A DNA stretch of 41,787 nucleotides from Desulfogranum japonicum DSM 18378 (GTDB lineage Bacteria; Desulfobacterota; Desulfobulbia; Desulfobulbales; Desulfobulbaceae). The notes under the pieces were generated by a model. The model was given only the letters and a program-made list of their open reading frames with translations. It made no database searches and was not told where the DNA came from. The stretch is from contig NZ_AUCV01000051.1 of the NCBI RefSeq assembly GCF_000429945.1, positions 1 through 41,787 of the forward strand, read 5' to 3'. Made by a program: the position numbers and the translations under genes. Of the stretch, positions 911 to 41,787 are shown one piece after another (position 1 is the first letter of the stretch; each line of letters begins with the position of its first letter).

Positions 911-1032
911 CAGTCCCTCCGGAAAAGTCTCCCGCTGGTCGCTTACCTCTTTGCACGATCGCGGTTTCCCGCATAGATAGCCTACCGGAGTTTTCGCTTG
1001 CCCAAATCTGAAGCACCTGTCGCCGGTTACAA
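911..1032 (+). repeat. Dispersed repeat family R, copy A
   Basis: This stretch matches the reverse complement of 17538-17690 almost throughout. The shared blocks include AGTCTCCCGCTGGTCGCTTA, CTCTTTGCAC, TTTCCCGCATAGATAGCCTA and GAAGCACCTGT, and end in a GGTTACAA-like terminus. A related terminal motif (GTGATCAGTTAC) lies just outside at 1074-1085. The element is non-coding and sits between the intron remnant and mobB. Its function is unknown; a non-autonomous mobile element or a structured repeat is possible. Confidence 0.75.
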
Positions 1033-1092
1033 TTCAGAACTTATTGAAATATAATATAGGTGTTGTCAACCCCGTGATCAGTTACAAGCAAA

Positions 1093-17316: not shown

Positions 17317-17537
17317 AAATAACCGGATCGGACAGTGATGATAGGAAGCAAAAGAGTGTGGTTGACACTGGTTAACCAGCCTTGAAAGCATAAAAATATG
17401 TACCAGACCCCTGTGTGCTTTGCAATCCGGTAGTACGGGGGGGGGTACTTTTTTGAACAGAATCAACGTGTTTACGAATGTGATTTGATGTAACTGGTAA
17501 CGGGATTAATAACACTGATATTTCAGTTGTTTACGAG

Positions 17538-17690
17538 TTGTAACTGGTCACAGGTGCTTCAGGTTTGGGCGAGCGTGTTTTTTCGCAGGTAAGGGAAGAC
17601 TCCAGTAGGCTATCTATGCGGGAAAAAGCGATTGTGCAAAGAGATAAGCGACCAGCGGGAGACTTCGCGGAGTCTGTGATCAGTTACGAG
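17538..17690 (-). repeat. Dispersed repeat family R, copy B (most complete)
   Basis: A 153-base non-coding element. Its ends are inverted copies of each other: GTAACTGGTCACAG at 17541-17554 and, reversed, GTAACTGATCACAG ending at 17674. Its interior matches copy A (911-1032) over most of its length and copy C (41622-41676) over one half. A palindromic core ACTTCGCGGAGT lies near the right end. The gap 17317-17779 holds otherwise only a partial extra motif (GTAACTGGTAAC near 17490). Confidence 0.78.
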
Positions 17691-33395: not shown

Positions 33396-33407
33396 AAAAC
33401 TCTTTTA

Positions 33408-33568
33408 GGGTTGCGGAAAATAATAAATATCCAAAAATTGCGCAGGATATCGGCTCATTCTCATAACTGTTCCAATGGTTCCATACTGGCCGTATTGATC
33501 CTTTGGAACAGTTATGAGAATGAGTTGAGAGACTAACAAGATTGGATAATTTATTTTTTCCGCGGCCC
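33408..33568. repeat. MITE-like element family M, copy M1
   Basis: A 161-base element with terminal inverted repeats of about 25 bases (left GGTTGCGGAAAATAATAAAT, right reversed GGCCGCGGAAAAAATAAATT). A perfect 22-bp inverted repeat occupies the middle (33454-33475 with 33503-33524, 27-base spacer), so the RNA would form a long hairpin. It contains no ORF. The right flank is TTA, and the left flank also ends in TTA, a possible target duplication. It ends 13 bases before the receiver-kinase start. The rest of the gap (33569-33902) shows only a short ATTCCA/TGGAAT dyad at 33625-33641. Confidence 0.8.
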
Positions 33569-37276: not shown

Positions 37277-37325
37277 TTTCATCTCCAGGTAGATGCTAAT
37301 ACTTGTACTTTCAGGTATTTTTCCA

Positions 37326-37425
37326 GGGCTGCGGAAAATGCTAGCTCTCCACAAATTGCACTGGATATGGGTTCATTTTCACGACTGTTCCATTGGTTCC
37401 ATACCGATGGTATTTTTCACGGACC
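37326..37425. repeat. MITE-like element family M, copy M3 (degenerate)
   Basis: A 100-base relative of M1: GCTGCGGAAAATG at the left, then ATTGCACTGGATATGG, then GACTGTTCCATTGGTTCCAT, which matches the left arm of the M1 palindrome, and TTTTTCACGGACC at the right. The right arm of the palindrome is lost. As with M1, TTA follows the right end. It lies in the leader of the Cache kinase gene, about 50 bases before its start. Confidence 0.65.
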
Positions 37426-39115: not shown

Positions 39116-39150
39116 TTCCCCCTAAATCCGAAATAATCAGCTTATATTAA

Positions 39151-39262
39151 GGGGCGCGGAAAATAATAAATATCCAAAAATTGCGCAGGATATCGGTTTG
39201 GCGACGTAGTTACCGAGTTGAGAGACAAGCAAGATTGGATAATGTATTTTTTCCGTGACCCC
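39151..39262. repeat. MITE-like element family M, copy M2
   Basis: A 112-base element. Its left part, from GCGGAAAATAATAAATATCC through CAAAAATTGCGCAGGATATCGG, is the same as in M1. The right part, TTGAGAGAC...AAGATTGGATAAT...TTTTTTCCG, also matches. The terminal inverted repeat is extended to GGGG. The central palindrome of M1 is absent; only GGTTTGGCGACGTAGTTACC remains. It lies 18 bases downstream of the RstB-like kinase stop. Confidence 0.8.
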
Positions 39263-41358: not shown

Positions 41359-41621
41359 CAACATCATGAAGTTCAGCTTATGGTATTTAACGTTATCTTG
41401 TTTCATTTTTCAATTTTCCAGAAAAAGAGCCCTGTATCTATTGGGTTTATGTGCCCAACTGTACTATCTCATACGCTGCAAACGAGTTTTTGAGGCTGTG
41501 TTACGCCTACAATTGCTTACACTTTGATACAGAGATCGCACAGAGGAATGGCAATATTCTCTATATTCTGGCAAAAGTATTTATTGGTGCCTTGTTAACA
41601 GGTTGTTTCACAACAATATGG

Positions 41622-41676
41622 GTAACTGATTACAGGTATCCCACGAAGTCTCCCGCTGGTCGCTTATCTCTTTGCA
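41622..41676 (+). repeat. Dispersed repeat family R, copy C (half element)
   Basis: GTAACTGATTACAG, then GAAGTCTCCCGCTGGTCGCT and TATCTCTTTGCA, match the corresponding half of copy B (reverse strand) with only a few differences. The second half is absent; the sequence diverges after 41676. The element lies upstream of the gene that starts at 41759. Confidence 0.75.
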
Positions 41677-41731
41677 TGGGAGCATTACGCGTTTGTCCAA
41701 TAACGGTTGCGTTCAAATATGAATCATGATA

Positions 41732-41758
41732 GCGTTATCTCCATTAAGGAGGTAACGC
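41732..41758 (+). promoter_or_regulatory. Hairpin burying the Shine-Dalgarno of the last gene
   Basis: GCGUUAUCUCC pairs with GGAGGUAACGC (11 pairs, one G-U) around the loop AUUAA. The second arm contains the Shine-Dalgarno GGAGG and ends at the base just before the AUG. The structure would block ribosome binding unless melted or bound by a factor; RNA thermometers and autoregulated mRNAs use this arrangement. As DNA it could instead be an operator. Confidence 0.6.
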
Positions 41759-41787
41759 ATGGAATCACTGATTATTCGCGGTAAGAG
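41759..41787 (+). CDS. Start of a gene truncated by the window edge
   Basis: Nine codons are visible (MESLIIRGK), preceded by AAGGAGG six bases upstream, so this is a well-marked start. The N-terminus resembles UvrA (such as MDKIEVRGA), but nine residues do not allow an identification. The leader hairpin at 41732-41758 covers the ribosome site. Confidence 0.6.

Follow-up and report, generated by a model that had tools for sequence, protein, structure and literature searches.

A stem-loop at the start codon of an ISKra4-type transposon as a probable guard against translation of read-through transcripts

Insertion sequences with guarded starts

The insertion sequences IS10 and IS50 carry near their outside end an inverted repeat that folds only in transcripts arriving from outside, and it is then that the transposase start is hidden. 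The locus considered here lies at one end of a 41,787-nucleotide stretch of DNA from Desulfogranum japonicum DSM 18378 (NZ_AUCV01000051.1; referred to below as the window), which makes up the whole of contig C44 in its genome. It would resemble IS10 and IS50 in having a hairpin that hides a start in outside transcripts only, here in silico for the window and with a predicted start point. In contrast to them, whose transposases belong to other families, it is a DruA-like first gene that would be guarded here, and the sequence of the stem varies between relatives. Regulation of IS50 and IS10 is the subject of PMC4265352 and PMC5006887, in the available portions of which the point about read-through is absent.

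IS200 has two stem-loops, one of which terminates impinging transcripts and the other of which occludes the ribosome binding site (PMC3196728). Like the present element it is an insertion sequence in whose transposase message a stem conceals the ribosome binding site, but its transposase is of the Y1 type, and no terminator-like site was found in positions 41500-41787 that hold the end of the window's element. The accessible part of PMC3196728 does not say of IS200 that its own message should escape through an overlap between left arm and promoter. With ISPpu9, as far as the available text of PMC8450116 goes, structure in the 5′-UTR similarly limits translation of the transposase, but there it is two small RNAs that exert the control.

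The accessible part of PMC3942029 treats ISKra4 as one of three groups of a single Mutator-like family, and records that extra genes, of unknown function, are present in four ISKra4 elements and that several elements insert upstream of sigma-A promoters. The transposase family and the presence of extra genes in those four elements are shared with the transposons described below, but that part mentions neither a hairpin leader nor a first gene of the DruA family, and DUF4338 is absent from the main text. Druantia figures, in the portion available of PMC11090510, as a neighbour of other systems. The mainly open-access literature covered on DruA/DUF4338 and transposases, ISKra4, leader stem-loops, read-through and leaderless transposases gave no report of the present leader.

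An element end at the contig end

The relevant features are at the end of the window, all on the forward strand.

41641..41676 (+): left part of a dispersed-repeat copy interrupted by the element, by sequence similarity
41678..41787 (+): left end of an ISKra4-type transposon, running off the contig end
41678..41698 (+): terminal inverted repeat GGGAGCATTACGCGTTTGTCC, with which the shared part starts; inverted ends bound the relatives
41707..41714 (+): -35-like motif TTGCGTTC, also met ahead of other DruA genes, where TA follows its first hexamer at 17 nt
41730..41735 (+): predicted -10-like hexamer TAGCGT
41732..41742 (+): left arm of the hairpin, overlapping the -10-like box and the predicted start point
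41748..41758 (+): right arm of the hairpin, holding the Shine-Dalgarno sequence GGAGG (41748-41752)
41759..41787 (+): start of the DruA-family ORF1, with the first 9 complete codons (MESLIIRGK..), cut by the contig end

All 110 bases of 41678-41787 recur in contig C64 of the same genome and the first 94 in C91 (99%), with different flanks. Immediately upstream, 41641-41676 matches 17635-17670 at 97% over 36 nt and 925-955 at 97% over 31 nt, and this similarity to a dispersed repeat (window 925-1052 and 17518-17665, with at least 46 matches in the genome, 40 of 123 candidates having been scored) stops one base before the element boundary. Because the 110 bases are shared between different flanks and the repeat similarity ends at the boundary, sequence comparison indicates that a mobile element has inserted into a copy of the repeat and that the contig stops within this element. 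Such an insertion would account for the contig break and, most likely, for the "half copy" of a repeat R that the original prediction had placed upstream of the hairpin; a half copy is indeed present at 41641-41676 and is probably the one meant, R having been left undefined there. The original prediction had not recognised the site as a transposon's left end.

The copies in C44 and C91 are each cut off by the end of the contig, and in the C64 copy the reading frame stops after about 37 codons. A search for the ORF2 of the window's own element met only partial or distant transposases in the assembly, and no right end of its own copy was found at these. An intact copy in this genome is presumed. 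Close to the point at which the copy in C64 is broken off lies a GGGGTCAGAGTAAAA-like sequence (L001, about 1650-1680), variants of which lie nearby in the same contig (L001, 1360-1385 and 2165-2190), and this sequence is perhaps the edge of another mobile element.

Two-gene relatives

Of 257 genomes from the order, 15 including this one contain the end sequence when as many as 2 mismatches are allowed, and a reversed-pattern control matched 0. The related transposons measure 2.3-2.4 kb between inverted ends and carry two genes, one of the DruA family (PF14236) and one for an ISKra4-family transposase. Inverted ends bound seven of them (L110, L112, L113, L116, L155, L156 and L158), and in 7/7 the stop of ORF1 reads ATGA and overlaps the start of ORF2, which in L113 is broken into several frames. 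Target duplications of 8 bp flank L155 and L158 (2/7), and L110 has 7/8 matching bases; comparison of 12 flanking bases gave no clear duplication for L112, L113, L116 and L156.

One whole element of 2366 bp, with inverted ends and two ORFs, comes from a Desulfobulbaceae MAG (L050/L110, JANTGB010000294.1). Its ORF1 of 293 aa matches Pfam DruA at 2.3e-34, and it is through this full-length relative that the gene running beyond the window, whose identity the original prediction had singled out for checking, is assigned to the DruA family. Short N-terminal peptides gave nothing with Pfam or NCBIfam. Against the NCBIfam ISKra4 model (cut-off 205 bits) the two full-length ORF2 proteins tested, from L116 and L112, score 242.3 and 239.6, and the partial ORF2 of L050 scores 71.2 bits, below the cut-off. 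The window holds only 9 codons of ORF1, and by its relatives its element would belong to the ISKra4 family. Structure prediction for ORF1 was of low confidence (pLDDT 58.6), and a PDB sequence search gave no match up to E 0.1. A Druantia defence system was considered in view of the DruA gene in L050 and rejected, as neither ORF has a PADLOC match and the next gene is a transposase.

A plasmid collection gave two records with distant matches. A scan of genome contigs gave 3 loci, among which was the L050 element already described. The pattern search of viral contigs found none; a search there with alignment A1 gave 4 loci on 3 contigs, all distant. A separate stretch of 384 bp between the same inverted ends (G023:C133:1154-1537, covering L009, L015 and L054) is too short for a transposase gene and is likely a non-autonomous, MITE-like derivative.

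The hairpin and its conservation

Arm GCGTTATCTCC (41732-41742), the loop ATTAA and arm GGAGGTAACGC (41748-41758) make 11 continuous pairs, one of which is U-G. The hairpin is thus present as originally described, with both arms, a 5-base loop and GGAGG inside; that the arms "pair completely" is right as to the 11 continuous pairs and has to be relaxed for the U-G, and the right arm does not stop one base before AUG, since it reaches 41758 and directly adjoins the ATG at 41759. Folding of the leader, which had been suggested as a check, gives the hairpin in the minimum free energy (MFE) structure of 188 nt of the window. Taken over its full length, this longer fold has no exceptional stability (z -1.27; 23/200 shuffles as stable). 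A scan of both strands of the window shows 13 places with stems of at least 11 pairs, G-U allowed and the loop being 3-8 long, so the claim made here rests on position and conservation and not on size: hairpin size alone is not rare, and what is unusual is the siting on the Shine-Dalgarno sequence and start codon, together with the conservation. The exact two-arm pattern (one free base per arm, loop of 3-8) occurs genome-wide only at the element's three copies.

L050 has the same stem as the window and a different loop, and the stems of L116 (GUCUUGCCUU...GAGGCAAGAC) and L090 (GCCUUGCUUC...GAAGCAAGGC) also adjoin the ATG. Alignment of these three with the window (4 sequences, gaps only in the loop) gives pairing in 95.5% of cells, two-sided changes in 4/11 stem pairs and a covariation score of 0.530, where slid structures score 0.045-0.152. 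Among shuffled controls 0/500 reach the covariation score, 27/500 the number of two-sided pairs and 397/500 the number of pair types. Covariation in relatives is what the original prediction had proposed to check. Compensatory changes that leave pairing and position as they were are seen in the close relatives, and from four sequences the covariation is suggestive rather than conclusive. An interrupted stem is kept in L161/L164 and the G575 copies, and in G031 pairing of the Shine-Dalgarno sequence is kept with different partners.

A wider sample comprised 81 distinct DruA leaders, 28 of which (19 clusters) have a Shine-Dalgarno sequence and a long leader. In these 28 the left and right segments pair with their own counterparts at a mean of -10.5 kcal/mol and with swapped ones at -6.4, and 0/20000 permutations are as low; own pairing ranks first in 8/19 clusters, within the first three in 13/19 and worse than third in 6/19. 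With 10 held-out leaders, fetched after the idea had been noted, 481/20000 permutations are as low (four held-out leaders close to earlier ones were dropped from this set), a weaker result in the same direction. The last 14 nt pair with upstream sequence at a mean of -13.4 in the 28 Shine-Dalgarno leaders vs -5.6 in 38 short ones.

A promoter-like motif ahead of DruA genes

The window has a promoter-like pair, TTGCGT at 41707-41712 and TAGCGT at 41730-41735, from which the element's own +1 is predicted near 41742, the last base of the left arm. A sigma-70 consensus scan of 41500-41787 gave no site, the hexamers being poor sigma-70 matches. The motif recurs, as TTGCGTTC, GTGCGTTC, TGGCGTC, TGGACTC and similar variants, upstream of DruA starts; on a list compiled after inspection of the leaders it is in 43/64 leader clusters, and it was missing from 22/81 leaders in the first scan. 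TA stands 17 nt after the first hexamer of the motif in 37/43 motif clusters (3.5 expected) and at other spacings in at most 10/43, and TAnnnT stands at 17 nt in 20/43 (1.0 expected). A held-out test that took its motif list from the earlier set, with 13/30 clusters lacking the motif and left uncounted, has TA at 17 in 13/17 motif clusters, and TAnnnT at 17 in 4/17 and at 19 in 5/17.

Promoters were placed in 69/81 leaders by score at spacings of 16-18 with a bonus for 17, so this placement is not itself evidence for the spacing. From the -10-like box to the start codon there are 6-11 nt in 38 of the 69 leaders and 19-39 nt in 29/31 of the others. In the short-distance group the ATG is at or just after the predicted +1 and a Shine-Dalgarno-like site is present in 0/38, for which reasons these 38 messages are probably leaderless. 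In the long leaders the left arm often covers the -10-like box and the start point: in counts that left out L125+1486 and L147+1480 (the swap and energy tests included both), the innermost left-arm partner is at most 3 nt from the predicted +1 in 15/26 and 8 to 35 nt upstream of it in 11. Upstream of the predicted +1 lie 235/244 partner bases, a count to which geometry contributes, since the greater part of the upstream sequence that was folded lies there too.

A proposed lock against read-through and its rivals

The reading to which we give a probability of roughly 70% is that the hairpin is a read-through lock of a two-gene ISKra4-type transposon from which the mRNA of the element's own promoter escapes. 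Transcripts entering the element from host DNA would carry both arms, fold, and conceal the Shine-Dalgarno sequence of ORF1; ORF2, starting inside the ORF1 stop (ATGA), is probably coupled to it in translation and would be blocked too. Transcripts from the element's own promoter would have their 5′ end at the inner edge of the left arm, so that this arm is missing and GGAGG exposed. Since the left arm covers the -10 box and the predicted start, the lock should exist only in outside transcripts, an overlap that the original prediction had also overlooked; the "downstream transcription start" that it named as a refutation is in effect the mechanism now proposed. Transposition would in this way be tied to the element's own promoter and shielded from accidental activation by neighbours. 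The sequence basis of the proposal comprises the element boundary, the hairpin, covariation, the recurrent promoter-like spacing and the ORF overlap in relatives, and it is from this that we infer promoter activity, start point, translational effect and coupling.

In silico at 37 C, the probability that the window's GGAGG is unpaired is 0.001 in read-through RNA vs 0.60 in RNA from the predicted own start. Averaged over the 28 leaders, folding energy is -12.3 kcal/mol for the full leader and -1.6 kcal/mol for RNA that starts at the predicted +1, and with start offsets of 4 to 8 nt it stays between -2.3 and -1.5 kcal/mol. Mean unpaired probability is 0.30 for read-through RNA, 0.58 for own RNA and 0.38 with shuffled upstream sequence. 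Read-through RNA is more closed than own RNA in 20/28 leaders and more closed than shuffled in 20/28; with this compliance, and with 0.30 only somewhat below the shuffled 0.38, the rule that read-through RNA is more closed than own mRNA is not universal.

The original prediction had read the tight stem as pointing to translational control by temperature, a ligand or a protein, or to an operator at the gene start. Control through the locked Shine-Dalgarno sequence is supported by the covariation, but the triggers are not. GGAGG has an in silico probability of being unpaired of 0.000 at 4 C and still only 0.012 at 75 C, so that an RNA thermometer was rejected, and a known riboswitch or other RNA family was rejected likewise, with 0 Rfam matches up to E 1 in 41400-41787. 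That the hairpin acts within the element's own mRNA as a switch for ORF1 translation, responding to temperature, a ligand or a small RNA, is accordingly unlikely, even though the Shine-Dalgarno sequence is paired in a long transcript and ISPpu9 offers a leader that hides the ribosome binding site and that an antisense RNA helps to open (available text of PMC8450116). Besides the closed stem and the lack of an Rfam match, the loop varies among the four aligned relatives, and the predicted +1 sits at the left arm's inner end, where the 17-nt TA spacing (37/43, as against at most 10/43 elsewhere) would put it.

A palindrome that is near-perfect, lies 55-81 bp inside the element end and overlaps the predicted -10 would also suit a DNA operator, or a binding site for the transposase or DruA. 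For a protein operator of fixed sequence, however, the stems of close relatives differ too much while their pairing persists, U-G wobbles break the symmetry at the DNA level, and in the window, L050, L116 and L090 alike the stem adjoins the start codon and holds the Shine-Dalgarno sequence; we regard this reading as distinctly improbable. A chance hairpin of no function could be argued from the 13 places in the window with stems as long, but its position and its covariation across elements make this very hard to credit.

Two leaders, possibly to one end

The read-through lock may be one form of something more general. A tentative proposal, for which we would give slightly less than even odds, is that DruA transposons of ISKra4 or IS66 type share the rule "translate only from our own promoter" and follow it with two interchangeable leaders, one leaderless with ATG at +1 and the other with a Shine-Dalgarno sequence locked by an arm that is the element's own -10 region, promoter and RNA lock being the same bases and co-evolving as a unit. 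The leaderless class would arrive at the same end in that its read-through message has neither a Shine-Dalgarno sequence nor a 5′-terminal AUG. If true, one group of transposons would have protection from read-through built in, in two forms that converge. Which messages are translated could then be predicted from a sequence grammar (8-mer, 17 nt, TA, then a leaderless start or a hairpin). DruA, named after the Druantia defence system, here heads the genes in two kinds of transposon.

The second kind was met in four loci (L114, L115, L118 and L120) in which DruA-family genes directly precede IS66-family transposases; the IS66-family model NF033517 is above cut-off in L114 and L120, and L115 and L118 are similar by eye. 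Elsewhere DruA-family genes sit in open frames of about 690-780 aa. Transposon genes of this sort may be the origin of the DruA found in Druantia. The outer parts of the dispersed repeat that the window's element interrupts (925-1052, 17518-17665 and 41641-41676) resemble inverted GTAACTG-TCACAG ends and are similar to the sequence preceding the DruA genes of L063 and L064, for which reason the repeat may have arisen from a DruA/IS66-type element as a short, non-autonomous form. A second dispersed repeat family is present in the window at 33404-33568, 37322-37371 and 39147-39261, and it includes a long inverted repeat at 33454-33524 whose arms are 91% complementary.
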